A DNA stretch of 64,000 nucleotides from Scatophagus argus (taxonomy: Eukaryota; Chordata; Actinopteri; Scatophagidae): positions 3,363,408 through 3,427,407 of the forward strand of contig NC_058513.1 in assembly GCF_020382885.2 (NCBI RefSeq). The letters run 5' to 3'. Position 1 is the first letter of the stretch; each line of letters opens with the position of its first letter. Of this stretch, positions 34,658 to 57,410 are shown in pieces. The position numbers and the translations under genes are program-made. Under the pieces are notes generated by a model. It saw only the letters and a program-made list of their open reading frames with translations, was not told where the DNA came from and did not search any database.

Positions 34658-35127
34658 CATCAGACTCAAACACATTTGAGTACTGCACAATACTGTTGTG
34701 TACAATTTGTGACTTCTAAAGTCAGTTCTTCTAGTCTCATGTTAAATCATCGACCTAGCGGACTTGAAATTGATAGTGTGCAACACGTGTGTCGTACTCT
34801 GAACAACCTTAACTTTTAGCTCCATTTGGGTCAGTGTTTTGTACTGTGAACAGAGCGCTGAGGCAGTGGTTGGTAACACAATCACTGTTTCAAGCCACCG
34901 CAGCTGCACAGGTGAAGCTGATTCTAACACTCTTCCAAATAAAGGTTTATTTTTATTATCTTTTCATTTAGTATTATCAGTTTCATTGTCTAACCTTTCA
35001 GTTTTATAGGCTATTGTGATCTGCTATCTTAGGAAACTGTTTCTCGAGCAAGCGAAAACTGTGTCTCCATGTTTTTTAAAGTCAGAATGTGAGTATCTTT
35101 CCTCTTACAAGTAGGGCTATCCATCCA

Positions 35128-35340
35128 TCTAGATTGTTTTGATGTGAGTTGCAGAATTTGCATCTATTCATGGACAAAAACCTTGTGCTCGTGACAGTAC
35201 AGGATGTAGACAGTAACCATATCTTCCTTAGCTGAGCTATAATGTTGGCTAGCTTGGTTTGCTAACAAAAGAAGAGAGTTCATACATATAACTGCTCACA
35301 CAAGATCTGTGGATTATCTTAAGAAACTTCTTTTCTTAAA
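35128..35340. repeat. MITE-like stretch inside each array unit (unit 1 shown)
   Basis: Contains CCATCTAGATTGTTTTGATG, TTTGCATCTATTCATGGAC and GGATTATCTTAAGAAAC. These resemble, with divergence and partly in reverse complement, motifs of the element at 12100-12560. Present at the same place in all six units, so it predates the amplification. Confidence 0.4.
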
Positions 35341-35357
35341 GTGACACCAGTGTTTGA

Positions 35358-35386
35358 TGTTTATTTATTTATTTATTTATTTGTAT
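35358..35386. repeat. (TTTA)n microsatellite, unit 1
   Basis: Six or so TTTA units; the same tract recurs in the other units with altered length and T-runs (for example near 38896, 42435 and 49868). Confidence 0.8.
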
Positions 35387-35738
35387 ATTTGTATATTAGA
35401 CAGAGTGTACTTTGTCTATACCATACTTGGATTTATTTACCTTTCTGAGTTTAAAGATAACCTTTCAGACAAGAAGAGTTTTGTTTTTTTTTTGTTGTTG
35501 TTGTTGTTTTTTTATAATTTATGTCACATAGAGTAAAATAAAAGTCAGTTAAATGAAAGCACTTAACAGAGTAGAAATCTGAAAAATTAACAGTAAATTT
35601 TACTCCATTGTATTTTTCAGAGTAACATTTTAAGTTTGAGTCAAATTTATCCTTATAAATTTACTATATACAACTTATGCTTTACATTTCATACCTCTAC
35701 TTCACCCCATTTCATAGAGAAATATTGTATTTTATATT

Positions 35739-35744
35739 TTTATT
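35739..35744 (-). terminator. candidate polyadenylation signal AATAAA, unit 1
   Basis: On the minus strand AATAAA lies 12 bases after the stop codon of the unit-1 gene. The same hexamer sits at the same spacing in the other copies (for example 39271-39276). This would give a very short 3' UTR; other T-rich matches on the plus strand farther left could serve instead. Confidence 0.45.
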
Positions 35745-35756
35745 TTAAGATAAAGT

Positions 35757-37278
35757 CTAATAGCGTCGGCGTTTGGGTTGTTTGCTGCCTCTGCCGTCGT
35801 CATCATCCTCCTCCTCCTCTCTTCTCCTCTTGCTGGTTCCTCCAGACAGTTGGCGAGAAGAATGTGCTCGCACTGGTTCTTCATCGTCTGTATCGCTGTC
35901 AGTGTTGCTGTCAGTGTCGCTGTCAGCGTCGCTGTCAGCGTCACTGTCAGCGTCACTGTCTGAGACGGCATCATTCCAGAACCTGAATCGTTTCCTGCTC
36001 ATCTTATCTCCTTCATCTTCCTCTCTTGACCTCCTCCTTGATCCTCCAGGCACTGAGCTGGTGGAGGGTGCATCTTCCTCAGCATCACTGTCGACGTCAC
36101 TGTCAGAGATGGCACCAGGCAGTTCATTCCTCCTGGATCCTCCTGGCAGGGGATCTTCTGCTTCCACGGGACGGTTGACCTCCAAGTGAACTCGAGGCTC
36201 AGCAGGAGCATTTTCAAACTGTTGACCAACTTCATCTTCTTCATCTTCTTCATCTTCCTCATCTTCTTCCTCATAGTCATCATAATTATTGTAAGCCAGT
36301 TCATCTCTAATTTGTCTCAGGTAAGCAATGGCTTCCATCACAAGTCCATTGATGAGGACGTACCGCAGCCAGTGAATGGTTCGAGCGTCAAATCGCCCAT
36401 ACTGTTCAATGACCTGCAGTATTTCCTGCTGTGGGTTATGTACCGGTCCAGCTACAAGATCATTTAGACAAATAATTGATTATTACTACTTATATGACAG
36501 GAAAAGTAACCACACACTTCTACAATAATCACTTACTAATAAATCAGTGTTACATAGTTTGAAATGTGTGGATGCTTTTCATAACCTTACACACAGTGTC
36601 TTATATCCTCAGCAGCTCCAGCAACAAGCACTTTTTTGATGAGCAGTGATCAGAAGCTACTGACTGATCTTAAAATTCAGCACGAAATCATTATTTGACT
36701 ATTTTCTATACATGACAACAGTGTCTGCCCAATATCGTTTTATATTAAACCTCAGACACGTTTGTGTGAAATGAGGAGTGAAGTTCCTACCATGGTTAGG
36801 GCCAACGTGGGGTCCGTCTCCTAAGTCTGGCATAACTGAAAACAAAACAAAAAAAGACTATTTTAAATCCACATGATCACATTGTTTTTGTTCATTATTT
36901 ACATTTTATGTTTTCAGTACATCACAACATGTCTGTCCTACACCTTGTAACATTAACACATAAGAGCCCAGACACATTTTTCTTGATAGGAAAATGATGG
37001 AGGATATAAAACATATCAAATGGATTACATGTAACATATTTCTGATGTTTTCTTGGAAAAAGTACCCTGTAGTGTCCAAGATCGTAGTTCTACATATATT
37101 TCACTTTGGACTTTTGTAGTAACTTTTTTCCTCATTTAAAGGTTTTTGACACCAGTGTCACTGTGGGATCTTTTGGGTTAAACATCAGGCATGTTGGTAT
37201 GAAATGAGGAGTGAGGTACCTACCGAGGTCAGGAGCATTGTGGTTAGCACCGTTGTGGGGTCCATCTCCTCTGTCCAT
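35757..37278 (-). CDS. array gene copy 1: acidic Ser-Asp-rich protein, 264 aa, unrecognised
   Basis: Coding exons on the minus strand: 37278-37224 (ATG at 37278, context ACAATGG), 36835-36791 and 36451-35757 (stop TAG). Introns have GT/AG ends and join in phase 1 each time. A noncoding exon ending in a strong donor CAG|GTAAGT at 37811 precedes them. The protein starts MDRGDGPHNG and repeats the motif GDGPH in the second exon. Residues about 43-86 look helical and non-repetitive (IHWLRYVLINGL, then AYLRQIRDEL); 91-107 are almost all Asp/Glu; 197-222 are Ser-Asp dipeptides; basic clusters SRRRSR, KRRR and KQPKRRRY lie at about 171-176, 241-244 and 257-264. No signal peptide or clear membrane segment. 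The composition suggests a disordered nuclear protein; that is inference. I do not recognise the family. Confidence 0.75.
36791..36835 (-). other. short coding exon 3 of copy 1, paralogous to exon 2
   Basis: A 45-base exon reading VMPDLGDGPHVGPNH, flanked by TTTTCAG and GTAGGAAC. The 60-base exon at 37283-37224 has the same GDGPH core, and the flanking introns are also alike (TCACTCCTCATTTCA follows both donors). The two arose by a duplication of about 433 bases. Both are phase 1-1, so gain or loss keeps the frame. Confidence 0.7.
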
Positions 37279-37810
37279 TGTAACTGAAAAGATACAACAG
37301 CTAAAATATTATTTTAAATTCACATGACCGCACTGTCTGTGCTCAGCTTTTACATTTCATGTTTTCAGCCCATCACAATATTGTCTGCCCCACAACTAAA
37401 AAACAAAATGGCGCATTAAGGTACGTATAAAAATAATTATAGGTTAGCAGGTTAGTTTATGTATTTGTGTTGACAATTTAAATGTAATTATCTGTTCCAC
37501 GACTTGACTGCCACACATCTACACGACTGCATTTCTAACTGAAATAGGAACACACTCCTTTTGTGAGTCCAGTTATCCAGGACAAACACAGAAATATGAT
37601 TTGAACTAAACGAATGCCAGCGTTGTGAGTGTATTAGCAAAATCATCTAACAAAATGTCACTTCAAAATCAGTAGAGGATTTGCTGTGTGGCTTTGTGAA
37701 AAGACAAAACAGAACTGTGAATTTAACAGTTAACTAATGAACTAAATTCACGCAATCATTTATTTTCATTCTCAATACTATTCATGCCATGTTCAGGCTT
37801 GTAGACTTAC

Positions 37811-38070
37811 CTGAATTCAAGGAAGCTTGTTTGGTCGCAGAAAAAGGAAGATTTCTGAAGGATCGCGTCGTCAAAACGTCGTACGAGTGGTTTTGTCAGA
37901 AACGTTGTGTGATGCCGTCGAATCTGGTGGAGATCGTAGTGCAAACTGCTGTGTTGGTATCAAAGGAACACCTGATGAGACTACAGCGGAATGTTTTCGC
38001 TGTGAAACATCAGAGCCATCAAAGCACAGGAGTTCCAGGAGTTTTAAGAGTTCCATTTCATCGGTCATCA
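37811..38070 (-). promoter_or_regulatory. 5' noncoding exon and CpG-rich promoter-like segment, unit 1
   Basis: The minus strand has CAG|GTAAGT with the exon ending at 37811, in phase with the exon at 37283, but the joined frame is closed by a TGA about 80 bases upstream and holds no ATG, so this exon is read as 5' UTR. CpG is locally enriched (GATCGCGTCGTCAAAACGTC at 37861-37880, GCCGTCGAATC near 37914), unlike the rest of the unit. A separate 65-codon ORF (38068-37871) could be an upstream ORF. The transcription start is not defined. Equivalent donors lie at 41350, 45252, 48784, 52135 and 55670. Confidence 0.5.
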
Positions 38071-38090
38071 AAAACAAGCATGTCGGGGGC

Positions 38091-38190
38091 GGGCGTGGCC
38101 TAGAGGTTGGAGAATCGGCTTGCTTTCGGAAGGTCGCCGGTTCGATTCCCCCACCGGACAGGCAGGTGGAGTGATCGTGTTGTTCCCCCT
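38091..38190 (+). mobile_element. truncated tRNA-derived SINE head, unit 1
   Basis: A box-like GTGGCCTAGAGGTTGG and B box GGTTCGATTCC (38142-38152) identify a tRNA-derived pol III promoter. The full-length relative near 58155-58345 continues into a body with a 'ccttgagcaaggc' motif; this copy stops before it, and the next array unit begins. Opposite in direction to the array gene whose 5' exon lies just to the left. Confidence 0.7.
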
Positions 38191-39288
38191 CATCAGACTC
38201 AAACACATTTGAGTACTGCACAATACTGTTGTGTACAATTTGTGACTTCTAGAGTCAGTTCTTCTAGTCTCATGTTAAATCATCGACCTAGCGGACTTGA
38301 AATTGATAGTGTGCAACACGTGTGTCGTACCCTGAACAACCTTAACTTTTAGCTCCATTTGGGTCAGTGTTTTGTACTGTGAACAGAGCGCTGAGGCAGT
38401 GGTTGGTAACACAATCACTGTTTCAAGCCACCGCAGCTGCACAGGTGAAGCTGATTCTAACACTCTTCCAAATAAAGGTTTATTTTTATTATCTTTTCAT
38501 TTAGTATTATCAGTTTCATTGTCTAACCTTTCAGTTTTATAGGCTATTGTGATCTGCTATCTTAGGAAAGTGTTTCTCGAGCAAGCGAAAACTGTGTCTC
38601 CATGTTTTTTAAAGTCAGAATGTGAGTATCTTTCCTCTTACAAGTAGGGCTATCCATCCATCTAGATTGTTTTGATGTGAGTTGCAGAATTTGCATCTAT
38701 TCATGGACAAAAACCTTGTGCTCGTGACAGTACAGGATGTAGACAGTAACCATATCTTCCTTAGCTGAGCTATAATGTTGGCTAGCTTGGTTTGCTAACA
38801 AAAGAAGATAGTTCATACATATAACTGCTCACACAAGATCTGTGGATTATCTTAAGAAACTTCTTTTCTTAAAGTGACACCAGTGTTTGATGTTTATTTA
38901 TTTATTTATTTATTTGTATATTTGTATATTAGACAGAGTGTACTTTGTCTATACCATACTTGGATTTATTTACCTTTCTGAGTTTAAAGATAACCTTTCA
39001 GACAAGAAGAGTTTTGGGTTTTTTTTTGTTGTTGTTGTTTTTTTTATAATTTATGTCACATAGAGTAAAATAAAAGTCAGTTAAATGAAAGCACTTAACA
39101 GAGTAGAAATCTGAAAAATTAACAGTAAATTTTACTCCATTGTATTTTTCAGAGTAACATTTTAAGTTTGAGTCAAATTTATCCTTATAAATTTACTATA
39201 TACAACTTATGCTTTACATTTCATACCTCTACTTCACCACATTTCATAGAGAAATATTGTATTTTATATTTTTATTTTAAGATAAAGT

Positions 39289-40807
39289 CTAATAGCGTCG
39301 GCGTTTGGGTTGTTTGCTGCCTCTGCCGTCGTCATCATCCTCCTCCTCTCTTCTCCTCTTGCTGGTTCCTCCAGACAGTTGGCGAGAAGAATGTGCTCGC
39401 ACTGGTTCTTCATCGTCTGTGTCGCTGTCTGTGTCGCTGTCAGCGTCGCTGTCAGCGTCGCTGTCAGCGTCACTGTCAGCGTCACTGTCTGAGACGGCAT
39501 CATTCCAGAACCTGAATCGTTTCCTGCTCATCTTATCTCCTTCATCTTCCTCTCTTGACCTCCTCCTTGATCCTCCAGGCACTGAGCTGGTGGAGGGTGC
39601 ATCTTCCTCAGCATCACTGTCGACGTCACTGTCAGAGATGGCACCAGGCAGTTCATTCCTCCTGGATCCTCCAGGCAGGGGATCTTCTGCTTCCACGGGA
39701 CGGTTGACCTCCAAGTGAACTCGAGGCTCAGCAGGAGCATTTTCAAACTGTTGACCAACTTCATCTTCTTCATCTTCTTCATCTTCCTCATCTTCTTCCT
39801 CATAGTCCTCATAATTATTGTAAGCCAGTTCATCTCTAATTTGTCTCAGGTAAGCAATGGCTTCCATCACAAGTCCATTGATGAGGACGTACCGCAGCCA
39901 GTGAATGGTTCGAGCGTCAAATCGCCCATACTGTTCAATGACCTGCAGTATTTCCTGCTGTGGGTTATGTACCGGTCCAGCTACAAGATCATTTAGACAA
40001 ATAATTGATTATTACTACTTATATGACAGGAAAAGTAACCACACACTTCTACAATAATCACTTACTAATAAATCAGTGTTACATAGTTTGAAATGTGTGG
40101 ATGCTTTTCATAACCTTACACACAGTGTTTTATATCCTCAGCAGCTCCAGCAACAAGCACTTTTTTGATGAGCAGTGATCAGAAGCTACTGACTGATCTT
40201 AAAATTCAGCACGAAATCATTATTTGACTATTTTCTATACATGACAACAGTGTCGGCCCAATATCGTTTTATATTAAACCTCAGACACGTTTGTGTGAAA
40301 TGAGGAGTGAAGTTCCTACCATGGTTAGGGCCAACGTGGGGTCCGTCTCCTAAGTCTGGCATAACTGAAAACAAAACAAAAAAAGACTATTTTAAATCCA
40401 CATGATCACATTGTTTTTGTTCATTATTTACATTTTATGTTTTCAGTACATCACAACATGTCTGTCCTACACCTTGTAACATTAACACATAAGAGCCCAG
40501 ACACATTTTTCTTGATAGGAAAATGATGGAGGATATAAAACATATCAAATGGATTACATGTAACATATTTCTGATGTTTTCTTGGAAAAAGTACCCTGTA
40601 GTGTCCAAGATCGTAGTTCTACATATATTTTACTTTGGACTTTTGTAGTAACTTTTTTCCTCATTTAAAGGTTTTTGACACCAGTGTCACTGTGGGATCT
40701 TTTGGGTTAAACATCAGGCATGTTGGTATGAAATGAGGAGTGAGGTACCTACCGAGGTCAGGAGCATTGTGGTTAGCACCGTTGTGGGGTCCATCTCCTC
40801 TGTCCAT
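39289..40807 (-). CDS. array gene copy 2, 263 aa
   Basis: Exons 40807-40753 (coding part of 40812-40753), 40364-40320 and 39980-39289, all with the same splice sites as copy 1. It has one Glu fewer in the run after KRRR (EEE instead of EEEE) and reads NNYEDYEEE where copy 1 has NNYDDY. The Ser-Asp tract has the copy-1 length but is built from SDAD units, without the Asn variant of copies 1 and 6. The frame is intact. A 5' noncoding exon ends at 41350. Confidence 0.75.
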
Positions 40808-41629
40808 TGTAACTGAAAAGATACAACAGCTAAAATATTATTTTAAATTCACATGACCGCACTGTCTGTGCTCAGCTTTTACATTTCATGTTTTCAGCCC
40901 ATCACAATATTGTCTGCCCCACAACTTAAAAACAAAATGGCGCATTAAGGTATGTATAAAAATAATTATAGGTTAGCAGGTTAGTTTATGTATTTGTGTT
41001 GACAATTTAAATGTAATTATCTGTTCCACGACTTGACTGCCACACATCTACACGACTGCATTTCTAACTGAAATAGGAACACACTCCTTTTGTGAGTCCA
41101 GTTATCCAGGACAAACACCCACAAACACAGAAATAGGACTTGAACTAAACTAATGCCAGCGTTGTGAGTGTATTAACAAAATCATCTAACAAAATGTCAC
41201 TTCAAAATCAGTAGAGGATTTGCTGTGTGGCTTTGTGAAAAGACAAAACAGAAATGTGAATTTAACAGTTAACTAATGAACTAAATTCACGCAATCATTT
41301 ATTTTCATTCTCAATACTATTCATGCCATGTTCAGGCTTGTAGACTTACCTGAATTCAAGGAAGCTTGTTTGGTCGCAGAAAAAGGAAGATTTCTGAAGG
41401 ATCGCGTCGTCAAAACGTCGTACGAGTGGTTTTGTCAGAAACGTTGTGTGATGCCGTCGAATCTGGTGGAGATCGTAGTGCAAACTGCTGTGTTGGTATC
41501 AAAGGAACACCTGATGAGACTACAGCGGAATGTTTTCGCTGTGAAACATCAGAGCCATCAAAGCACAGGAGTTCCAGGACTTTTAAGAGTTCCATTTCAT
41601 CGGTCATCAAAAACAAGCATGTCGAGGGC

Positions 41630-41729
41630 GGGCGTGGCCTAGAGGTTGGAGAATGGGCTTGCTTTCGGAAGGTCGCCGGTTCGATTCCCCCACCGGACAG
41701 GCAGGTGGAGTGATCGTGTTGTTCCCCCT
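41630..41729 (+). mobile_element. truncated SINE head, unit 2
   Basis: Same 100-bp piece as in unit 1 with A and B boxes retained. Reads GAGAATGGGCTTG where unit 1 has GAGAATCGGCTTG. Confidence 0.7.
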
Positions 41730-42827
41730 CATCAGACTCAAACACATTTGAGTACTGCACAATACTGTTGTGTGCAATTTGTGACTTCTAGAGTCAGTTC
41801 TTCTAGTCTCATGTTAAATCATCGACCTAGCGGACTTGAAATTGATAGTGTGCAACACGTGTGTCGTACTCTGAACAACCTTAACTTTTAGCTCCATTTG
41901 GGTCAGTGTTTTGTACTGTGAACAGAGCGCTGAGGCAGTGGTTGGTAACACAATCACTGTTTCAAGCCACCGCAGCTGCACAGGTGAAGCTGATTCTAAC
42001 ACTCTTCCAAATAAAGGTTTATTTTTATTATCTTTTCATTTAGTATTATCAGTTTCATTGTCTAACCTTTCAGTTTTATAGGCTATTGTGATCTGCTATC
42101 TTAGGAAACTGTTTCTCGAGCAAGCGAAAACTGTGTCTCCATGTTTTTTAAAGTCAGAATGTGAGTATCTTTCCTCTTACAAGTAGGGCTATCCATCCAT
42201 CTAGATTGTTTTGATGTGAGTTGCAGAATTTGCATCTATTCATGGACAAAAACCTTGTGCTCGTGACAGTACAGGATGTAGACAGTAACCATATCTTCCT
42301 TAGCTGAGCTATAATGTTGGCTAGCTTGGTTTGCTAACAAAAGAAGAGAGTTCATACATATAACTGCTCACACAAGATCTGTGGATTATCTTAAGAAACT
42401 TCTTTTCTTAAAGTGACACCAGTGTTTGATGTTTTTTTTATATATTTATTTTTTTGTATATTTGTATATTAGACAGTGTACTTTGTCTATACCATACTTG
42501 GATTTATTTACCTTTCTGAGTTTAAAGATAACCTTTCAGACAAGAAGAGTTTTGTTTTGTTTTTTTTGTTGTTGTTGTTTTTTTGTAATTTATGTCACAT
42601 AGAGTAAAATAAAAGTCAGTTAAATGAAAGCACTTAACAGAGTAGAAATCTGAAAAATTAACAGTAAATTTTACTCCATTGTATTTTTCAGAGTAACATT
42701 TTAAGTTTGAGTCAAATTTATCCTTATAAATTTACTATATACAACTTATGCTTTACATTTCATACCTCTACTTCACCACATTTCATAGAGAAATATTGTA
42801 TTTTATATTTTTATTTTAAGATAAAGT

Positions 42828-44709
42828 CTAATAGCGTCGGCGTTTGGGTTGTTTGCTGCCTCTGCCGTCGTCATCATCCTCCTCCTCCTCTCTTCTCCTC
42901 TTGCTGGTTCCTCCAGACAGTTGGCGAGAAGAATGTGCTCGCACTGGTTCTTCATCGTCTGTGTCGCTGTCTGTGTCGCTGTCAGCGTCGCTGTCAGCGT
43001 CACTGTCAGCGTCACTGTCTGAGACGGCATCATTCCAGAACCTGAATCGTTTCCTGCTCATCTTATCTCCTTCATCTTCCTCTCTTGACCTCCTCCTTGA
43101 TCCTCCAGGCACTGAGCTGGTGGAGGGTGCATCTTCCTCAGCATCACTGTCGACGTCACTGTCAGAGATGGCACCAGGCAGTTCATTCCTCCTGGATCCT
43201 CCAGGCAGGGGATCTTCTGCTTCCACGGGACGGTTGACCTCCAAGTGAACTCGAGGCTCAGCAGGAGCATCTTCAACCTGTTGACCAACTTCATCTTCTT
43301 CATCTTCTTCATCTTCCTCATCTTCTTCCTCATAGTCCTCATAATTATTGTAAGCCAGTTCATCTCTAATTTGTCTCAGGTAAGCAATGGCTTCCATCAC
43401 AAGTCCATTGATGAGGACGTACCGCAGCCAGTGAATGGTTCGAGCGTCAAATCGCCCATACTGTTCAATGACCTGCAGTATTTCCTGCTGTGGGTTATGT
43501 ACCGGTCCAGCTACAAGATCATTTAGACAAATAATTGATTATTACTACTTATATGACAGGAAAAGTAACCACACACTTCTACAAAAATCATCCATCCATC
43601 CATTTTCTATACCGCTTATCCATCAGGGTCGCGGGGGAGCTGGAGCCTATCCCAGCTGACTATGGGCGAGAGGCGGGGTTCACCCTGGACTGGTCGCCAG
43701 CCAATCGCAGGACCAACACACAAAGACAGACAACCACACACTCTCACACTCACACCTAGGGGCAATTTAGAGTAGCCAATTAACCTAATGTGCATGTTTT
43801 TGGTATTGTGGGAGGAAGCCGGAGAACCCGGAGAAAACCCACGCAGGCACAGGGAGAACATGCAAACTTCACATAGAAGGGCCCAGACCGAGATTCGAAC
43901 CTCTTGCTATGAGGCAACAGTGCTAACCACCGCACCACCGTGCCGCCCTTCTACAATAATCACTTACTAATAAATCAGTGTTACATAGTTTGAAATGTGT
44001 GGATGCTTTTCATAACCTTACACACAGTGTCTTATATCCTCAGCAGCTCCAGCAACAAGCACTTTTTTGATGAGCAGTGATCAGAAGCTACTGACTGATC
44101 TTAAAATTCAGCACGAAATCATTATTTGACTATTTTCTATACATGACAACAGTGTCTGCCCAATATCTTTTTATATTAAACCTCAGACACGTTTGTGTGA
44201 AATGAGGAGTGAAGTTCCTACCATGGTTAGGGCCAACGTGGGGTCCGTCTCCTAAGTCTGGCATAACTGAAAACAAAACAAAAAAAGACTATTTTAAATC
44301 CACATGATCACATTGTTTTTGTTCATTATTTACATTTTATGTTTTCAGTACATCACAACATGTCTGTCCTACACCTTGTAACATTAACACATAAGAGCCC
44401 AGACACATTTTTCTTGATAGGAAAATGATGGAGGATATAAAACATATCAAATGGATTACATGTAACATATTTCTGATGTTTTCTTGGAAAAAGTACCCTG
44501 TAGTGTCCAAGATCGTAGTTCTACATGTATTTTACTTTGGACTTTTGTAGTAACTTTTTTCCTCATTTAAAGGTTTTTGACACCAGTGTCACTGTGGGAT
44601 CTTTTGGGTTAAACATCAGGCATGTTGGTATGAAATGAGGAGTGAGGTACCTACCGAGGTCAGGAGCATTGTGGTTAGCACCGTTGTGGGGTCCATCTCC
44701 TCTGTCCAT
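42828..44709 (-). CDS. array gene copy 3, 260 aa, intron carries an insertion
   Basis: Exons 44709-44655, 44266-44222 and 43510-42828. The last intron is 372 bases longer than in the sister copies because of the repeat insertion at 43591-43947. The insertion does not touch the splice sites, so the gene may still be spliced. The protein has a Ser-Asp tract four residues shorter than copy 1 and reads QQVEDAPAE where the others have QQFENAPAE. The frame is intact. A 5' noncoding exon ends at 45252. Confidence 0.73.
43591..43947 (+). mobile_element. common teleost interspersed repeat, copy 2, inserted in array unit 3
   Basis: 357 bases absent from the other five units. Flanked by CTTCTACAAAAATCA (43576-43590) and CTTCTACAATAATCA (43948-43962), a 15-base target-site duplication with one mismatch; the single-copy site is CTTCTACAATAATCA in the sister units. 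It starts with TCCATCCATCCATTTTC, includes GAGCCTATCCCAGCTGAC and GGAGGAAGCCGGAGAACCC, and ends CACCGCACCACCGTGCCGCC. No ORF is of transposase type. This is the best-delimited copy in the window. Confidence 0.88.
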
Positions 44710-45531
44710 TGTAACTGAAAAGATACAACAGCTAAAATATTATTTTAAATTCACATGACCGCACTGTCTGTGCTCAGCTTTTACATTTCATGTTTTCAGC
44801 CCATCACAATATTGTCTGCCCCACAACTTAAAAACAAAATGGCGCATTAAGGTATGTATAAAAATAATTATAGGTTAGCAGGTTAGTTTATGTATTTGTG
44901 TTGACAATTTAAATGTAATTATCTGTTCCACGACTTGACTGCCACACATCTACACGACTGCATTTCTAACTGAAATAGGAACACACTCCTTTTGTGAGTC
45001 CAGTTATCCAGGACAAACACCCACAAACACAGAAATATGACTTGAACTAAACTAATGCCAGCGTTGTGAGTGTATTAACAAAATCATCTAATAAAATGTC
45101 ACTTCAAAATCAGTAGAGGATTTGCTGTGTGGCTTTGTGAAAAGACAAAACAGAAATGTGAATTTAACAGTTAACTAATGAACTAAATTCACGCAATCAT
45201 TTATTTTCATTCTCAATACTATTCATGCCATGTTCAGGCTTGTAGACTTACCTGAATTCAAGGAAGCTTGTTTGGTCGCAGAAAAAGGAAGATTTCTGAA
45301 GGATCGCGTCGTCAAAACGTCGTACGAGTGGTTTTGTCAGAAACGTTGTGTGATGCCGTCGAATCTGGTGGAGATCGTAGTGCAAACTGCTGTGTTGGTA
45401 TCAAAGGAACACCTGATGAGACTACAGCGGAATGTTTTCGCTGTGAAACATCAGAGCCATCAAAGCACAGGAGTTCCAGGACTTTTAAGAGTTCCATTTC
45501 ATCGGTCATCAAAAACAAGCGCGTCGGGGGC

Positions 45532-45631
45532 GGGCGTGGCCTAGAGGTTGGAGAATGGGCTTGCTTTCGGAAGGTCGCCGGTTCGATTCCCCCACCGGAC
45601 AGGCAGGTGGAGTGATCGTGTTGTTCCCCCT
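45532..45631 (+). mobile_element. truncated SINE head, unit 3
   Basis: Same 100-bp SINE head. The base just before it differs from units 1-2 (AAGCGCGTCGGGGG instead of AAGCATGTCGGGGG). Confidence 0.7.
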
Positions 45632-46730
45632 CATCAGACTCAAACACATTTGAGTACTGCACAATACTGTTGTGTGCAATTTGTGACTTCTAGAGTCAGT
45701 TCTTCTAGTCTCATGTTAAATCATCGACCTAGCGGACTTGAAATTGATAGTGTGCAACACGTGTGTCGTACTCTGAACAACCTTAACTTTTAGCTCCATT
45801 TGGGTCAGTGTTTTGTACTGTGAACAGAGCGCTGAGGCAGTGGTTGGTAACACAATCACTGTTTCAAGCCACCGCAGCTGCACAGGTGAAGCTGATTCTA
45901 ACACTCTTCCAAATAAAGGTTTATTTTTATTATCTTTTCATTTAGTATTATCAGTTTCATTGTCTAACCTTTCAGTTTTATAGGCTATTGTGATCTGCTA
46001 TCTTAGGAAAGTGTTTCTCGAGCAAGCGAAAACTGTGTCTCCATGTTTTTTAAAGTCAGAATGTGAGTATCTTTCCTCTTACACGTAGGGCTATCCATCC
46101 ATCTAGATTGTTTTGATGTGAGTTGCAGAATTTGCATCTATTCATGGACAAAAACCTTGTGCTCGTGACAGTACAGGATGTAGACAGTAACCATATCTTC
46201 CTTAGCTGAGCTATAATGTTGGCTAGCTTGGTTTGCTAACAAAAGAAGAGAGTTCATACATATAACTGCTCACACAAGATCTGTGGATTATCTTAAGAAA
46301 CTTCTTTTCTTAAAGTGACACCAGTGTTTGATGTTTATTTATTTATTTATTTATTTGTATATTTGTATATTAGACAGAGTGTACTTTGTCTATACCATAC
46401 TTGGATTTATTTACCTTTCTGAGTTTAAAGATAACCTTTCAGACAAGAAGAGTTTTGGTTTTTTTTTTTGTTGTTGTTGTTTTTTTTATAATTTATGTCA
46501 CATAGAGTAAAATAAAAGTCAGTTAAATGAAAGCACTTAACAGAGTAGAAATCTGAAAAATTAACAGTAAATTTTACTCCATTGTATTTTTCAGAGTAAC
46601 ATTTTAAGTTTGAGTCAAATTTATCCTTATAAATTTACTATATACAACTTATGCTTTACATTTCATACCTCTACTTCACCACATTTCATAGAGAAATATT
46701 GTATTTTATATTTTTATTTTAAGATAAAGT

Positions 46731-48241
46731 CTAATAGCGTCGGCGTTTGGGTTGTTTGCTGCCTCTGCCGTCGTCATCATCCTCCTCCTCCTCTCTTCTC
46801 CTCTTGCTGGTTCCTCCAGACAGTTGGCGAGAAGAATGTGCTCGCACTGGTTCTTCATCGTCTGTGTCGCTGTCTGTGTCGCTGTCAGCGTCGCTGTCAG
46901 CGTCACTGTCAGCGTCACTGTCTGAGACGGCATCATTCCAGAACCTGAATCGTTTCCTGCTCATCTTATCTCCTTCATCTTCCTCTCTTGACCTCCTCCT
47001 TGATCCTCCAGGCACTGAGCTGGTGGAGGGTGCATCTTCCTCAGCATCACTGTCGACGTCACTGTCAGAGATGGCACCAGGCAGTTCATTCCTCCTGGAT
47101 CCTCCAGGCAGGGGATCTTCTGCTTCCACGGGACGGTTGACCTCCAAGTGAACTCGAGGCTCAGCAGGAGCATTTTCAAACTGTTGACCAACTTCATCTT
47201 CTTCATCTTCTTCATCTTCCTCATCTTCTTCCTCATAGTCATCATAATTATTGTAAGCCAGTTCATCTCTAATTTGTCTCAGGTAAGCAATGGCTTCCAT
47301 CACAAGTCCATTGATGAGGACGTACCGCAGCCAGTGAATGGTTCGAGCGTCAAATCGCCCATACTGTTCAATGACCTGCAGTATTTCCTGCTGTGGGTTA
47401 TGTACCGGTCCAGCTACAAGATCATTTAGACAAATAAGTGATTATTACTACTTATATGACAGGAAAAGTAACCACACACTTCTACAATAATCACTTACTA
47501 ATAAATCAGTGTTACATAGTTTGAAATGTGTGGATGCTTTTCATAACCTTACACACAGTGTCTTATATCCTCAGCAGCTCCAGCAGCAAGCACTTTTTTG
47601 ATGAGCAGTGATCAGAAGCTACTGACTGATCTTAAAATTCAGCACGAAATCATTATTTGACTATTTTCTATACATGACAACAGTGTCGGCCCAATATCTT
47701 TTTATATTAAACCTCAGACACGTTTGTGTGAAATGAGGAGTGAAGTTCCTACCATGGTTAGGGCCAACGTGGGGTCCGTCTCCTAAGTCTGGCATAACTG
47801 AAAACAAAACAAAAAAAAGACTATTTTAAATCCACATGATCACATTGTTTTTGTTCATTATTTACATTTTATGTTTTCAGTACATCACAACATGTCTGTC
47901 CTACACCTTGTAACATTAACACATAAGAGCCCAGACACATTTTTCTTGATAGGAAAATGATGGAGGATATAAAACATATCAAATGGATTACATGTAACAT
48001 ATTTCTGATGTTTTCTTGGAAAAGGTACCCTGTAGTGTCCAAGATCGTAGTTCTACTTATATTTCACTTTGGACTTTTGTAGTAACTTTTTTCCTCATTT
48101 AAAGGTTTTTGACACCAGTGTCACTGTGGGATCTTTTGGGTTAAACATCAGGCATGTTGGTATGAAATGAGGAGTGAGGTACCTACCGAGGTCAGGAGCA
48201 TTGTGGTTAGCACCGTTGTGGGGTCCATCTCCTCTGTCCAT
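46731..48241 (-). CDS. array gene copy 4, 260 aa
   Basis: Exons 48241-48187, 47797-47753 and 47413-46731. Frame and splice sites are intact. The Ser-Asp tract length matches copy 3, but the acidic segment reads NNYDDYEEE and QQFENAPAE as in copy 1, so it combines variants of different sisters. The second intron has one extra A. A 5' noncoding exon ends at 48784. Confidence 0.75.
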
Positions 48242-49063
48242 TGTAACTGAAAAGATACAACAGCTAAAATATTATTTTAAATTCACATGACCGCACTGTC
48301 TGTGCTCAGCTTTTACATTTCATGTTTTCAGCCCATCACAATGTTGTCTGCCCCACAACTAAAAAACAAAATGGCGCATTAAGGTACGTATAAAAATAAT
48401 TATAGGTTAGCAGGTTAGTTTATGTATTTGTGTTGACAATTTAAATGTAATTATCTGTTCCACGACTTGACTGCCACACATCTACACGACTGCATTTCTA
48501 ACTGAAATAGGAACACACTCCTTTTGTGAGTCCAGTTATCCAGGACAAACACCCACAAACACAGAAATGTGACTTGAACTAAACTAATGCCAGCGTTGTG
48601 AGTGTATTAACAAAATCATCTAACAAAATGTCACTTCAAAATCAGTAGAGGATTTGCTGTGTGGCTTTGTGAAAAGACAAAACAGAACTGTGAATTTAAC
48701 AGTTAACTAATGAACTAAATTCACGCGATCATTTATATTCATTCTCAATACTATTCATGCCATGTTCAGGCTTGTAGACTTACCTGAATTCAAGGAAGCT
48801 TGTTTGGTCGCAGAAAAAGGAATATTTCTGAAGGATCGCGTCGTCAAAACGTCGTACGAGTGGTTTTGTCAGAAACGTTGTGTGATGCCGTCGAATCTGG
48901 TGGAGATCGTAGTGCAAACTGCTGTGTTGGTATCAAAGGAACACCTGATGAGACTACAGCGGAATGTTTTCGCTGTGAAACATCAGAGCCATCAAAGCAC
49001 AGGAGTTCCAGGACTTTTAAGAGTTCCATTTCATCGGTCATCAAAAACAAGCGTGTCGGGGGC

Positions 49064-49163
49064 GGGCGTGGCCTAGAGGTTGGAGAATGGGCTTGCTTTC
49101 GGAAGGTCGCCGGTTCGATTCCCCCACCGGACAGGCAGGTGGAGTGATCGTGTTGTTCCCCCT
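49064..49163 (+). mobile_element. truncated SINE head, unit 4
   Basis: Same 100-bp SINE head with both internal promoter boxes. Confidence 0.7.
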
Positions 49164-49960
49164 CATCAGACTCAAACACATTTGAGTACTGCACAATACT
49201 GTTGTGTGCAATTTGTGACTTCTAGAGTCAGTTCTTCTAGTCTCATGTTAAATCATCGACCTAGCGGACTTGAAATTGATAGTGTGCAACACGTGTGTCG
49301 TACTCTGAACAACCTTAACTTTTAGCTCCATTTGGGTCAGTGTTTTGTACTGTGAACAGAGCGCTGAGGCAGTGGTTGGTAACACAATCACTGTTTCAAG
49401 CCACCGCAGCTGCACAGGTGAAGCTGATTCTAACACTCTTCCAAATAAAGGTTTATTTTTATTATCTTTTCATTTAGTATTATCAGTTTCATTGTCTAAC
49501 CTTTCAGTTTTATAGGCTATTGTGATCTGCTATCTTAGGAAAGTGTTTCTCGAGCAAGCGAAAACTGTGTCTCCATGTTTTTTAAAGTCAGAATGTGAGT
49601 ATCTTTCCTCTTACAAGTAGGGCTATCCATCCATCTAGATTGTTTTGATGTGAGTTGCAGAATTTGCATCTATTCATGGACAAAAACCTTGTGCTCGTGA
49701 CAGTACAGGATGTAGACAGTAACCATATCTTCCTTAGCTGAGCTATAATGTTGGCTAGCTTGGTTTGCTAACAAAAGAAGAGAGTTCATACATATAACTG
49801 CTCACACAAGATCTGTGGATTATCTTAAGAAACTTCTTTTCTTAAAGTGACACCAGTGTTTGATGTTTTTTTTATTTATTTATTTATTTGTATATTTGTA
49901 TATTAGACAGTGTACTTTGTCTATACCATACTTGGATTTATTTACCTTTCTGAGTTTAAA

Positions 49961-49990
49961 GATAACCTTTTAAACCTTTTAAATTTATCC
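49961..49990. other. deletion junction in array unit 5
   Basis: Where unit 4 has 177 bases (46440-46616), unit 5 has only TAAACCTTTT (49971-49980). The filler resembles the adjacent AACCTTT. The loss is downstream of the unit-5 stop codon and of its candidate AATAAA, so the coding part is untouched. Confidence 0.85.
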
Positions 49991-50094
49991 TTATAAATTT
50001 ACTATATACAACTTATGCTTTACATTTCATACCTCTACTTCACCACATTTCATAGAGAAATATTGTATTTTATATTTTTATTTTAAGATAAAGT

Positions 50095-51592
50095 CTAATA
50101 GCGTCGGCGTTTGGGTTGTTTGCTGCCTCTGCCGTCGTCATCATCCTCCTCCTCCTCTCTTCTCCTCTTGCTGGTTCCTCCAGACAGTTGGCGAGAAGAA
50201 TGTGCTCGCACTGGTTCTTCATCGTCTGTATCGCTGTCAGCGTCGCTGTCAGCGTCACTGTCAGCGTCACTGTCTGAGACGGCATCATTCCAGAACCTGA
50301 ATCGTTTCCTGCTCATCTTATCTCCTTCATCTTCCTCTCTTGACCTCCTCCTTGATCCTCCAGGCACTGAGCTGGTGGAGGGTGCATCTTCCTCAGCATC
50401 ACTGTCGACGTCACTGTCAGAGATGGCACCAGGCAGTTCATTCCTCCTGGATCCTCCAGGCAGGGGATCTTCTGCTTCCACGGGACGGTTGACCTCCAAG
50501 TGAACTCGAGGCTCAGCAGGAGCATTTTCAAACTGTTGACCAACTTCATCTTCTTCATCTTCTTCATCTTCCTCATCTTCTTCCTCATAGTCATCATAAT
50601 TATTGTAAGCCAGTTCATCTCTAATTTGTCTCAGGTAAGCAATGGCTTCCATCACAAGTCCATTGATGAGGACGTACCGCAGCCAGTGAATGGTTCGAGC
50701 GTCAAATCGCCCATACTGTTCAATGACCTGCAGTATTTCCTGCTGTGGGTTATGTACCGGTCCAGCTACAAGATCATTTAGACAAATAATTGATTATTAC
50801 TACTTATATGACAGGAAAAGTAACCACACACTTCTACAATAATCACTTACTAATAAATCAGTGTTACATAGTTTGAAATGTGTGGATGCTTTTCATAACC
50901 TTACACACAGTGTCTTATATCCTCAGCAGCTCCAGCAACAAGCACTTTTTTGATGAGCAGTGATCAGAAGCTACTGACTGATCTTAAAATTCAGCACGAA
51001 ATCATTATTTGACTATTTTCTATACATGACAACAGTGTCTGCCCAATATCGTTTTATATTAAACCTCAGACACGTTTGTGTGAAATGAGGAGTGAAGTTC
51101 CTACCATGGTTAGGGCCAACGTGGGGTCCGTCTCCTAAGTCTGGCATAACTGAAAACAAAACAAAAAAAGACTATTTTAAATCCACATGATCACATTGTT
51201 TTTGTTCATTATTTACATTTTATGTTTTCAGTACATCACAACATGTCTGTCCTACACCTTGTAACATTAACACATAAGAGCCCAGACACATTTTTCTTGA
51301 TAGGAAAATGATGGAGGATATAAAACATATCAAATGGATTACATGTAACATATTTCTGATGTTTTCTTGGAAAAAGTACCCTGTAGTGTCCAAGATCGTA
51401 GTTCTACATATATTTTACTTTGGACTTTTGTAGTAACTTTTTTCCTCATTTAAAGGTTTTTGACACCAGTGTCACTGTGGGATCTTTTGGGTTAAACATC
51501 AGGCATGTTGGTATGAAATGAGGAGTGAGGTACCTACCGAGGTCAGGAGCATTGTGGTTAGCACCGTTGTGGGGTCCATCTCCTCTGTCCAT
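50095..51592 (-). CDS. array gene copy 5, 256 aa, shortest Ser-Asp tract
   Basis: Exons 51592-51538, 51149-51105 and 50765-50095. The Ser-Asp tract is eight residues shorter than in copies 1 and 6 and four shorter than in copies 3 and 4, showing change in steps of four residues (12 bases). Frame intact. The downstream flank carries the 167-base net deletion at 49971. A 5' noncoding exon ends at 52135. Confidence 0.75.
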
Positions 51593-52414
51593 TGTAACTG
51601 AAAAGATACAACAGCTAAAATATTATTTTAAATTCACATGACCGCACTGTCTGTGCTCAGCTTTTACATTTCATGTTTTCAGCCCATCACAATATTGTCT
51701 GCCCCACAACTTAAAAACAAAATGGCGCATTAAGGTATGTATAAAAATAATTATAGGTTAGCAGGTTAGTTTATGTATTTGTGTTGACAATTTAAATTTA
51801 ATTATCTGTTCCACGACTTGACTGCCACACATCTACACGACTGCATTTCTAACTGAAATAGGAACACACTCCTTTTGTGAGTCCAGTTATCCAGGACAAA
51901 CACCCACAAACACAGAAATATGACTTGAACTAAACTAATGCCAGCGTTGTGAGTGTATTAACAAAATCATCTAACAAAATGTCACTTCAAAATCAGTAGA
52001 GGATTTGCTGTGTGGCTTTGTGAAAAGACAAAACAGAAATGTGAATTTAACAGTTAACTAATGAACTAAATTCACGCAATCATTTATTTTCATTCTCAAT
52101 ACTATTCATGCCATGTTCAGGCTTGTAGACTTACCTGAATTCAAGGAAGCTTGTTTGGTCGCAGAAAAAGGAAGATTTCTGAAGGATCGCGTCGTCAAAA
52201 CGTCGTACGAGTGGTTTTGTCAGAAACGTTGTGTGATGCCGTCGAATCTGGTGGAGATCGTAGTGCAAACTGCTGTGTTGGTATCAAAGGAACACCTGAT
52301 GAGACTACAGCGGAATGTTTTCGCTGTGAAACATCACAGCCATCAAAGCACAGGAGTTCCAGGACTTTTAAGAGTTCCATTTCATCGGTCATCAAAAACA
52401 AGCGTGTCGGGGGC

Positions 52415-52514
52415 GGGCGTGGCCTAGAGGTTGGAGAATGGGCTTGCTTTCGGAAGGTCGCCGGTTCGATTCCCCCACCGGACAGGCAGGTGGAGTGATC
52501 GTGTTGTTCCCCCT
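52415..52514 (+). mobile_element. truncated SINE head, unit 5
   Basis: Same 100-bp SINE head, last complete one in the array. Confidence 0.7.
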
Positions 52515-53605
52515 CATCAGACTCAAACACATTTGAGTACTGCACAATACTGTTGTGTGCAATTTGTGACTTCTAGAGTCAGTTCTTCTAGTCTCATGTT
52601 AAATCATCGACCCAGCGCACTTGAAATTGATAGTGTGCAACACGTGTGTCGTACTCTGAACAACCTTAACTTTTAGCTCCATTTGGGTCAGTGTTTTGTA
52701 CTGTGAACAGAGCGCTGAGGCAGTGGTTGGTAACACAATCACTGTTTCAAGCCACCGCAGCTGCACAGGTGAAGCTGATTCTAACACTCTTCCAAATAAA
52801 GGTTTATTTTTATTATCTTTTCATTTAGTATTATCAGTTTCATTGTCTAACCTTTCAGTTTTATAGGCTATTGTGATCTGCTATCTTAGGAAAGTGTTTC
52901 TCGAGCAAGCGAAAACTGTGTCTCCATGTTTTTTAAAGTCAGAATGTGAGTATCTTTCCTCTTACACGTAGGGCTATCCATCCATCTAGATTGTTTTGAT
53001 GTGAGTTGCAGAATTTGCATCTATTCATGGACAAAAACCTTGTGCTCGTGACAGTACAGGATGTAGACAGTAACCATATCTTCCTTAGCTGAGCTATAAT
53101 GTTGGCTAGCTTGGTTTGCTAACAAAAGAAGAGAGTTCATACATATAACTGCTCACACAAGATCTGTGGATTATCTTAAGAAACTTCTTTTCTTAAAGTG
53201 ACACCAGTGTTTGATGTTTATTTATTTATTTATTTGTATATTTGTATATTAGACAGTGTACTTTGTCTATACCATACTTGGATTTAGTTACCTTTCTGAG
53301 TTTAAAGATAACCTTTCAGACAAGAAGAGTTTTGGGGTTTTTTTTGTTGTTGTTGTTTTTTTGTAATTTATGTCACATAGAGTAAAATAAAAGTCAGTTA
53401 AATGAAAGCACTTAACAGAGTAGAAATCTGAAAAATTAACAGTAAATTTTACTCCATTGTATTTTTCAGAGTAACATTTTAAGTTTGAGTCAAATTTATC
53501 CTTATAAATTTACTATATACAACTTATGCTTTACATTTCATACCTCTACTTCACCACATTTCATAGAGAAATATTGTATTTTATATTTTTATTTTAAGAT
53601 AAAGT

Positions 53606-55127
53606 CTAATAGCGTCGGCGTTTGGGTTGTTTGCTGCCTCTGCCGTCGTCATCATCCTCCTCCTCCTCTCTTCTCCTCTTGCTGGTTCCTCCAGACAGTT
53701 GGCGAGAAGAATGTGCTCGCACTGGTTCTTCATTGTCTGTATCGCTGTCAGTGTTGCTGTCTGTGTCGCTGTCAGCGTCGCTGTCAGCGTCACTGTCAGC
53801 GTCACTGTCTGAGACGGCATCATTCCAGAACCTGAATCGTTTCCTGCTCATCTTATCTCCTTCATCTTCCTCTCTTGACCTCCTCCTTGATCCTCCAGGC
53901 ACTGAGCTGGTGGAGGGTGCATCTTCCTCAGCATCACTGTCGACGTCACTGTCAGAGATGGCACCAGGCAGTTCATTCCTCCTGGATCCTCCAGGCAGGG
54001 GATCTTCTGCTTCCACGGGACGGTTGACCTCCAAGTGAACTCGAGGCTCAGCAGGAGCATTTTCAAACTGTTGACCAACTTCATCTTCTTCATCTTCTTC
54101 ATCTTCCTCATCTTCTTCCTCATAGTCATCATAATTATTGTAAGCCAGTTCATCTCTAATTTGTCTCAGGTAAGCAATGGCTTCCATCACAAGTCCATTG
54201 ATGAGGACGTACCGCAGCCAGTGAATGGTTCGAGCGTCAAATCGCCCATACTGTTCAATGACCTGCAGTATTTCCTGCTGTGGGTTATGTACCGGTCCAG
54301 CTACAAGATCATTTAGACAAATAATTGATTATTACTACTTATATGACAGGAAAAGTAACCACACACTTCTACAATAATCACTTACTAATAAATCAGTGTT
54401 ACATAGTTTGAAATGTGTGGATGCTTTTCATAACCTTACACACAGTGTCTTATATCCTCAGCAGCTCCAGCAACAAGCACTTTTTTGATGAGCAGTGATC
54501 AGAAGCTACTGACTGATCTTAAAATTCAGCACGAAATCATTATTTGACTATTTTCTATACATGACAACAGTGTCGGCCCAATATCTTTTTATATTAAACC
54601 TCAGACACGTTTGTGTGAAATGAGGAGTGAAGTTCCTACCATGGTTAGGGCCAACGTGGGGTCCGTCTCCTAAGTCTGGCATAACTGAAAACAAAACAAA
54701 AAAAGACTATTTTAAATCCACATGATCACATTGTTTTTGTTCATTATTTACATTTTATGTTTTCAGTACATCACAACATGTCTGTCCTACACCTTGTAAC
54801 ATTAACACATAAGAGCCCAGACACATTTTTCTTGATAGGAAAATGATGGAGGATATAAAACATATCAAATGGATTACATGTAACATATTTCTGATGTTTT
54901 CTTGGAAAAAGTACCCTGTAGTGTCCAAGATCGTAGTTCTACATGTATTTTACTTTGGACTTTTGTAGTAACTTTTTTCCTCATTTAAAGGTTTTTGACA
55001 CCAGTGTCACTGTGGGATCTTTTGGGTTAAACATCAGGCATGTTGGTATGAAATGAGGAGTGAGGTACCTACCGAGGTCAGGAGCATTGTGGTTAGCACC
55101 GTTGTGGGGTCCATCTCCTCTGTCCAT
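53606..55127 (-). CDS. array gene copy 6, 264 aa
   Basis: Exons 55127-55073, 54684-54640 and 54300-53606. It shares the SDTDSNTDSDTD variant with copy 1, from the far end of the array, and has Asn for Asp after it (SDTDNEEP). Frame intact. The 5' exon ends at 55670. Its upstream region differs from the other copies because the array stops at about 55950 and a different SINE follows, so any promoter element within the SINE head would differ. Confidence 0.75.
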
Positions 55128-55945
55128 TGTAACTGAAAAGATACAACAGCTAAAATATTATTTTAAATTCACATGACCGCACTGTCTGTGCTCAGCTTTT
55201 ACATTTCATGTTTTCAGCCCATCACAATATTGTCTGCCCCACAACTTAAAAACAAAATGGCGCATTAAGGTATGTATAAAAATAATTATAGGTTAGCAGG
55301 TTAGTTTATGTATTTGTGTTGACAATTTAAATTTAATTATCTGTTCCACGACTTGACTGCCACACATCTACACGACTGCATTTCTAACTGAAATAGGAAC
55401 ACACTCCTTTCGTGAGTCCAGTTATCCAGGACAAACACCCACAAACACAGAAATATGACTTGAACTAAACTAATGCCAGCGTTGTGAGTGTATTAACAAA
55501 ATCATCTAACAAAATGTCACTTCAAAATCAGTAGAGGATTTGCTGTGTGGCTTTGTGAAAAGACAAAACAGAAATGTGAATTTAACAGTTAACTAATGAA
55601 CTAAATTCACGCAATCATTTATTTTCATTCTCAATACTATTCATGCCATGTTCAGGCTTGTAGACTTACCTGAATTCAAGGAAGCTTGTTTGGTCGCAGA
55701 AAAAGGAAGATTTCTGAAGGATCGCGTCGTCAAAACGTCGTACGAGTGGTTTTGTCAGAAACGTTGTGTGATGCCGTCGAATCTGGTGGAGATCGTAGTG
55801 CAAACTGCTGTGTTGGTATCAAAGGAACACCTGATGAGACTACAGCGGAATGTTTTCGCTGTGAAACATCACAGCCATCAAAGCACAGGAGTTCCAGGAC
55901 TTTTAAGAGTTCCATTTCATCGGTCATCAAAAACAAGCATGTCGG

Positions 55946-56215
55946 GGGCGATCAGAAGGTCGCTGGTTCGATTCCGGGCAGGAAAAAGTTGAGTGTGGTG
56001 GAGTGATAATGCCCCCCCCACCCCATTGGCCAGCTGATGTGCCCTTGAGCAAGGCACTTAAACCCCAATATATGCTTCCCGCTTGATGCAGCAGACAGCT
56101 CCTGTGTGTTTCACTGCATGTTGCATGTGTGTGTTTCAATCAGTGATGGGTTAATTGTAGGGAAGCAATTTCCCAGCTTGGGATTATTAAAGTAACTTAA
56201 ATTAAAAAAAAAAAA
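55946..56215 (+). mobile_element. SINE at the right edge of the array
   Basis: Array homology stops within GTCGGGGGCG, followed by ATCAGAAGGTCGCTGGTTCG and a B box (GGTTCGATTCC), then the conserved body GCCCTTGAGCAAGGCACTTA and an A-rich tail at about 56202-56215. The A-box part is missing relative to the SINE heads inside the array. It has the 3' body that those heads lack. Confidence 0.75.
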
Positions 56216-57079: not shown

Positions 57080-57410
57080 TCAAATGAAGAACCTTCTGTT
57101 AGGATAGGGCTCAGTGTTTTTTGTCTCCTGTCCTCTCTCTCCCCTCCTCTGGTGTGTGAACCAATCCGGAGCAGGGCCGGGCCGACCCGTCTTCCTCCTG
57201 TGATCCACTTACATGCAAACCTGCTGCTCATCTGGTCCAATCATCACCACTCTACCTCCTGATTTATAAACTCTCCTGCTTCACTAACCCCAGATTGTAC
57301 TGTCAGCTTCTGTAGTATTATGTCAGACTCTCTCCTTGAGACGATCTCTGTTTGTGATTTTTCCTTACGATCTAATACTTATCTCTTTGTGCTCAGGTTG
57401 TCAAGTTTTC
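57080..57410 (+). repeat. LTR-like dispersed repeat remnant
   Basis: Contains CTCTCTCCCCTCCTCTGGTG, GGAGCAGGGCCGGGCCGACC, CCTGATTTATAAACTCTCC and GATTTTTCCTTACGATC, a GC- and pyrimidine-rich island in AT-rich flanks in the style of a fish LTR end. A TATA-like TTTATAAA near 57261 would suit a promoter. No internal coding region or second LTR is seen. Confidence 0.3.

Follow-up and report, generated by a model that had tools for sequence, protein, structure and literature searches.

In Arabidopsis, VANDAL transposons carry a spliced gene, VANC, whose protein combines conserved parts with regions of high variability and with short peptide motifs in tandem (PMC5735166). Here we analyze a stretch of 64,000 nucleotides (nt) from Scatophagus argus (assembly GCF_020382885.2, contig NC_058513.1, positions 3,363,408 to 3,427,407 of the forward strand; hereafter the window), which holds a six-unit head-to-tail array of a spliced gene. 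We tentatively read the array as the tandem amplification of a mobile segment bearing a gene of RNA polymerase II (Pol II) type for a nuclear accessory or anti-silencing protein, a reading to which we give a probability of about 0.46. Like VANC, this would be a mobile-element protein encoded by a spliced gene, with conserved and highly variable parts and short tandem peptide motifs; unlike VANC, no companion transposase was seen here, and kinship is unseen (0 Pfam families, no VANC sequence directly compared). We infer a possible anti-silencing role of the window protein by analogy with VANC, not by kinship.

At the cattle KIT locus, a circle-mediated duplication was reportedly described by Durkin in 2012. 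To our knowledge, introns several-fold more alike than the adjoining exon are rare outside arms-race genes, and in venom genes introns are more conserved than exons. Accelerated exons and fast change in coding exons are described for snake venom genes (PMC2711939, PMC6062510). Unlike those genes, the window gene encodes a protein of nuclear type, its fast change is limited to a single block within one exon, and the ratio of non-synonymous to synonymous substitution rates (dN/dS, or omega) does not exceed 1. For the class comprising Helitron, Helitron2 and Helentron, a circular intermediate has been tested for (PMC5148889).

Results

The array and the segment to which it belongs comprise the following features, in window coordinates, with protein lengths in amino acids (aa).

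34658..55950, minus strand: six-unit head-to-tail array, each unit consisting of the end of a stretch resembling a short interspersed element (SINE), the gene, the element 3' end and 48 bp of flank
Exons 55127-55073, 54684-54640 and 54300-53606, minus strand: gene copy 1, 264 aa, from frame and splice sites
50095..51592, minus strand: gene copy 2, 256 aa, from frame and splice sites
46731..48241, minus strand: gene copy 3, 260 aa, from frame and splice sites
42828..44709, minus strand: gene copy 4, 260 aa, with a 372-bp repeat in intron 2 at 43585-43956
39289..40807, minus strand: gene copy 5, 263 aa, from frame and splice sites
35757..37278, minus strand: gene copy 6, 264 aa, from frame and splice sites
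54133..54300, minus strand: hypervariable helical core at the start of exon 3, copy 1, about codons 34-89
52402..52514, minus strand: unit junction, a truncated SINE-like stretch joined to the 3' flank
34706..34728, minus strand: 3' end of the segment as it stands in the final unit (..GACTTTAGAAGTCACAAA)
55947..57538, minus strand: 5' portion of the segment, lying upstream of the array and at this locus truncated at its 5' end

A preliminary description of the window, made from its letters alone, had reported six head-to-tail units, each with one minus-strand gene of 256-264 codons and identical splice sites, and we reproduced this for all six. Units start 3.35-3.90 kb apart and in register (repeat finding and k-mer offsets), and differ at 0.4-0.9% of sites. 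Every copy has three coding exons (55, 45 and 671-695 nt) that share their donors (GTAGGTAC, GTAGGAAC) and acceptors (TTTTGTTTTCAG, ATGATCTTGTAG) in 6/6, and an AATAAA that begins at the 13th base past the stop, likewise in 6/6. A retro-origin of the gene was set aside, as the introns are retained.

Copies of the gene also occur outside the array. In a six-frame search of the 570.7-Mb assembly (48 contigs, the window contig being C21), we found nine more gene copies on eight other contigs: C20, C10 (two copies), C16, C2, C19, C9, C18 and C12. With exons joined by homology, six of these nine have open frames, of 267 aa on C20, 252 on C16, 249 on C2, 265 on C9, 298 at C10 16.49M and 211 on C18. 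Searches with probes for either end of the segment and with another protein query added a copy on C22, a pair of gene-less short forms, both on C12, and fragments on C17, C19, C7 and C8. The array of the preliminary description stands but is only part of the picture, as its gene belongs to a dispersed family on a mobile segment.

Homology among the copies extends beyond the gene through introns and kilobases of flank, a full copy of the segment measuring about 4.9 kb. The 5' end, TAACTCATTAATC, follows differing flanks at four loci (C16, C12, C22 and a C12 short form), and the 3' end, GAAGTCACAAA, exact or with at most two mismatches over 23 nt, precedes differing flanks at seven (C21, C18, C22, the two C12 short forms, C17 and C19). 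One gene-less short form, of 1351 bp, keeps both ends, and a second, longer one lacks the 5' tip. Given that homology runs through introns and flanks up to fixed ends, we conclude that the gene is apparently carried by a mobile segment. The recurrence of the same two ends at unrelated sites and in gene-less forms speaks against a host multigene family (an immune or reproductive nuclear factor) under diversifying selection that spread by segmental duplication and circles with no transposon involved, an explanation that we regard as doubtful, although further evidence given below is in its favor.

The divergence of the dispersed copies from C21 is concentrated in one block. Introns differ by 1-6% and exons 1-2 by 0-15%, whereas the first ~170 nt of exon 3 are 18-25% divergent in seven of the nine copies (C20, 1.8%; C10 23.07M, 5.9%), the increase being abrupt at the exon 3 boundary. 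Among nine sequences, namely window copy 1 and eight dispersed copies (including the broken C10 23.07M and C12 copies, without C19), 65 of 156 core sites are variable versus 95 of 718 intron sites (p 1.6e-14), and the three codon positions contribute about equally. Such exon-limited divergence resembles that of arms-race genes and in this respect favors a host family, for which a dN/dS not above 1 is unfavorable.

Like junctions, in which a truncated SINE-like stretch is joined to the 3' flank, are present at all five unit borders as well as on C10 and C20. The stretch at the unit start was taken for a tRNA-type SINE by eye only; Rfam and ARAGORN made no call on it, nor did they report an RNA family or a tRNA anywhere else in the window. 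The C10 copy (23066000-23078000) comprises more than one unit, interrupted, and the C20 copy (13017561-13021068) one unit, at 93-96% identity. The latter is one array unit in circularly permuted order, beginning and ending at the same TTAAG within the unit. On C2, the whole element is permuted: its two ends are joined, 3' to 5', via TA, and the points at which it was opened lie about 40 bp from each other, close to the 3' end. The 5' end of this C2 element matches only that of the C22 copy.

We propose that in the array the 3' two-thirds of the ~4.9-kb segment was amplified in tandem on the spot, through one local duplication followed by unequal exchange that kept the units alike, with an occasional circle from a unit or an element integrating at another site. 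Duplication, unequal exchange and occasional circles appear to be the simplest account of this architecture; deletions with coincident breakpoints are a possible alternative for the permuted copies, one requiring two coincidences. For cattle KIT, too, a duplicated block is reported to reappear elsewhere in the chromosomes with its order circularly permuted, as on C20 and C2 here. In our case the circle would hold one unit of the array or an entire mobile element. Circle formation alone could explain the two permuted copies under a host gene family as well.

Several known classes were tried for the segment. In one copy, the first 150 nt compared with the reverse complement of the last 150 revealed no inverted repeat between the ends (956 of 1000 shuffles scored equal or higher), and no target duplication was seen in either of the two complete copies, in which the longest word common to the 12-bp flanks is 3 nt. 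A DNA transposon with terminal inverted repeats was rejected, as neither these repeats nor target duplication were found (2/2 complete copies), and so was a long terminal repeat retrotransposon, as there are no terminal direct repeats and introns are kept (reverse transcriptase was not searched for). The ends read TAACTC...CACAAA and the bases adjoining both complete insertions are A/C, which does not fit a canonical Helitron (5' TC, 3' CTRR, A/T insertion); the asymmetric terminal inverted repeat of Helitron2/Helentron was rejected on the same 956/1000 shuffles. A hairpin-like GACTTTAGAAGTC lies 5 nt from the 3' end, where Helitrons are expected to have theirs at 10-12 nt, and the last 60 nt fold at -4.5 kcal/mol. 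No frame of Rep-helicase size is present in the two copies listed, the C9 5' half (longest frame 100 aa) and C22 (159 aa, leaving aside the 189-aa exon 3); this search did not extend to Rep-helicase genes elsewhere in the genome. The ~10.7-kb C22 copy was considered as an autonomous partner and rejected, as it proved to be broken: other sequence interrupts it and the core is missing.

The segment is similar to non-autonomous Helitron, Helitron2 and Helentron elements (PMC5148889) in the lack of a visible target duplication, gene carriage and a tail-to-head joined copy (C2), and possibly in a short hairpin near the 3' end. It differs from them in that the ends are not TC...CTRR, insertion is not at A/T or TT, no inverted repeat links the ends, and the copies listed hold no frame of Rep/helicase size. 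With no inverted repeats, no target duplication and, in the two copies listed, no transposase-sized frame, we leave it as an unclassified mobile segment, probably non-autonomous.

Upstream of the array, two features suggest where transcription of copy 1 may start.

56360-56353, minus strand: TATA box TATAAATA, only upstream of copy 1
56305-56284, minus strand: putative first exon (exon A), ATGACAGAAAACACATGTCAAG then GTAT, encoding MTENTCQ, with a predicted splice

Joined to the exon 1 acceptor, exon A reads MTENTCQVTMDRGDGPH in frame, which puts all three introns in phase 1. The segment would carry one ordinary gene of Pol II type, with a TATA box, four exons in phase 1 and a poly(A) signal. 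On C21, the TATA/exon A region occurs once; exon A is also found in the C9, C18 and C10 16.49M elements (the C18 donor being GC, not GT), and the region around it in the C22 element. In the C16 and C2 copies exon A is deleted, and the C20 copy lacks the 5' part. Because units start downstream of exon A and end 48 bp past the element 3' end, copies 2-6 are without TATA box and exon A, and these copies are probably silent or start at an internal ATG. Therefore, the intactness that the preliminary description ascribed to all copies applies to their reading frame and not to the upstream promoter and exon, which copies 2-6 do not have.

A conserved donor, ATTCAG|GTRAG, near the unit start (9/9 matches at 8 loci) could belong to another, untranslated, first exon. 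Up to this donor, divergence is raised too, mostly to 10-17% (unit positions R1-R280; window 55946-55670 in copy 1), and the frame linking R1-R280 to exon 1 contains stops. Weak TATA/exon A matches (75-77%) were observed away from known copies at C16:10668764-10668855 and C2:21781440-21781516, possibly older relatives of the promoter. A sigma-70 promoter scan was set aside as not applicable to an animal.

The protein combines GDGPH repeats, three predicted helices, an acidic run, a Ser-Asp tract and basic clusters. In agreement with the preliminary description, which had recognized no named family, the window protein matched 0 Pfam families at E 10, and a sequence search of the PDB with window residues 1-89, as well as with the relative on C24 described below, returned nothing below E 1. 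From a single sequence, the core is predicted to form three helices at residues 6-17, 22-33 and 37-59 (mean predicted local distance difference test score, pLDDT, 74; predicted template modeling score, pTM, 0.46). Its basic clusters and acidic tracts point to a nuclear location. Hits short of the cut-off to CSN3-like_C in Pfam, by the C16 copy (E 0.016) and the C10 16.49M copy (E 0.003), and a hit to SdrC in NCBIfam by the C16 copy (E 0.05) were judged chance or composition, and a literature letter search for GDGPH retrieved only a Streptomyces P450 set.

A small acidic protein of nuclear type, a compact spliced gene and circular permutations are also what an endogenized gene of a DNA virus might leave. 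We consider this origin very improbable: 112 pattern-matching stretches gave 0 confirmed relatives, phage tblastn yielded no viral relative, the fold search was equally empty, and neither of the two copies listed has a long neighboring frame.

A set of six distant genes with open frames of 184-297 aa was observed at C24:12339569, 11126685, 10044264 and 7793642, C11:9132758 and C18:11286810, so that C24, a small contig of 13.2 Mb, carries four of the six. The C24 12.34M relative, the one that was read, has TVTMDxGGDG-like and GSRRRxREED...RFRxWxE...SDSD motifs in common with the window family, and its frame is intronless through TVTMDGGGDG. Its alignment with the C16 copy beats 3000/3000 shuffles at three window sizes (z 8, local composition kept), but composition-adjusted BLASTP found no match between this relative and the window family, so kinship of the distant set is likely, not proven. 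Between C24 and C11 or C18, the N-terminal and middle part is 52-55% identical and the C-terminal part 86-88%, one variable and the other kept. These distant frames, at which end searches found no element end, together with the C-terminal motif (z 8 against local shuffles) and variable middle part of the C24 relative, speak for a host family, while the silence of composition-adjusted BLASTP leaves that distant kinship unsupported.

Within the array, coding length changes amount to 12 and 24 bp in the Ser-Asp tract and 3 bp in the Glu run. As the preliminary description stated, the large insertion and deletion are confined to an intron and a 3' flank (372 bp inserted within intron 2 of the fourth unit; 144+24 bp missing from the 3' flank of the second). 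It was also correct that all coding length changes are multiples of three, but this is weak as a sign of selection: the 12-bp and 3-bp changes are codon repeats gained or lost, the repeat unit is itself a multiple of three, and since slippage would give the same, these changes taken alone are no sign of selection. Gap-free variable sites are not significantly rarer in coding (7/768) than in non-coding sequence (42/2452; p 0.13), and coding variation comprises six amino-acid changes and four silent ones. Recent amplification or homogenization accounts for the array as well as selection does; of the two explanations offered in the preliminary description, recent tandem amplification holds, and in-array selection is not significant.

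The 372-bp insert of the fourth unit (43585-43956) is a dispersed repeat bordered by repeated TTGTAGAAG, with further copies at window 62255-62558 and 6631-6924 (78-88%) and pieces on C16, C12, C2, C10 and C22 (79-98%). Ten long frames of the window outside the array had no Pfam match.

Discussion

We hypothesize that the segment moves via a borrowed enzyme, or at times as a circle opened at random, and that its gene product is nuclear, with a variable helical domain that engages a partner which itself changes quickly, be it element DNA or a silencing factor of the host. By analogy with VANC, this protein may act as an accessory or anti-silencing factor that keeps its own element expressed.

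Selection on the reading frame was sought between the dispersed copies. Among 204 distinct substitutions (codons 1-195, ten copies), one stop was seen versus 6.17 expected (p 0.015). Indels relative to the C21 unit, broken copies included, are multiples of three in 33/53 coding and 28/139 non-coding cases (p 7e-8), and in 8/11 outside the acidic run and Ser-Asp tract (p 5e-4). Given that in-frame indels lie largely within codon repeats, selection on the frame between dispersed copies is supported, not proven. Codon models were run with our own script, with the tree and relative branch lengths fixed from iqtree, on the nine sequences used for variable sites. Core omega under M0 is 1.00 (iqtree log 1.14), and that of the middle part, 0.64, is not significantly below 1 (log likelihood, lnL, -782.06 vs -783.58 for 1). 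Twice the log-likelihood difference (2dlnL) of M2a vs M1a is 1.48 in exons 1-2 and 7.42 in the middle part, where three sites lie above 0.8. For the core M2a is no better than M1a, and positive selection there, as sought with codon site models, was dropped.

Several of our findings weigh against the reading preferred here. Three of the nine dispersed copies are broken: C19 (stops and a shift), C12 (a shift near the C-terminus) and C10 23.07M (a stop and a 3.4-kb insertion). Three of the six open ones (C16, C2 and C20) lack exon A and the TATA box, so that they either have another start or are dead copies. About 17 loci altogether is low for a transposon, although this number is a lower bound, as end-probe and DNA searches score the best candidates only; among those candidates, there was no transposase and no other element with the same ends. 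A fold search of the PDB and viral models (BFVD) with the core gave no match below E 1, which makes DNA binding a guess. In exons 1-2 and the core omega stays near 1, and positive selection in the core finds no support from site models (2dlnL 0.62). A second stop (C10 23.07M) went uncounted in a column with too few sequences, and including it raises p to about 0.055. Most in-frame indels are in codon repeats, and excluding the C-terminal Glu-Asp run too leaves 3/6 (p 0.11), two of the three remaining non-triplet indels summing to 21 bp in one copy. Finally, silent sites of the core are raised too, third positions alone exceeding introns (p 2e-7). This indicates that the block is either older than its surroundings, with conversion homogenizing the rest, or faster mutating; selection on amino acids alone does not explain core divergence, and we favor retained old variants over faster mutation.

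Separately, the C19 copy has an insertion of ~3 kb in the element 3' part, with ends CAGGGG...CCCCTG and an 8-bp duplication ATCTAGAT, which we take to be hAT-like.

Many of these points would suit a gene that is carried as a passenger by a non-autonomous element, has no function and is decaying, drifting neutrally with dN/dS about 1: omega in exons 1-2 and the core, the three broken dispersed copies, the promoter absent from copies 2-6 and three open dispersed copies, and in-frame indels without clear excess outside codon repeats (3/6). Stops, however, are below chance (1 vs 6.17), six of nine frames are open at 1-6% intron divergence, and neutral drift alone would not yield an exon 3 start at 18-25% beside introns at 1-6%, so that we judge a mere passenger unlikely. 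The preliminary description had named dN/dS near 1 with frameshifts as evidence against its gene, and we find about half of that: omega is about 1 in the core and 0.64 in the middle part and 3/9 dispersed copies are broken, but stops are rarer than chance (p 0.015) and coding indels tend to be in frame, mostly in codon repeats. A bolder form of the element-borne gene is also conceivable, in which the segment would represent an undescribed, circle-competent class of vertebrate element with fixed ends but neither inverted repeats nor target duplication. Its nuclear, VANC-like protein would have a hypervariable helical domain in an arms race with host silencing, and arrays would be reservoirs shedding single units as circles that settle at other sites; this we hold to be distinctly unlikely.

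On the preferred reading, a mobile segment with an accessory or anti-silencing gene, a fast exon on a segment with fixed ends and no recognizable transposition machinery would offer a directly testable case of an element-borne protein pressed to vary. The permuted copies may likewise provide a concrete case of array units departing as circles. Should the gene be a passenger only, it would still be an example of an unnamed gene family spreading and amplifying in an animal genome.

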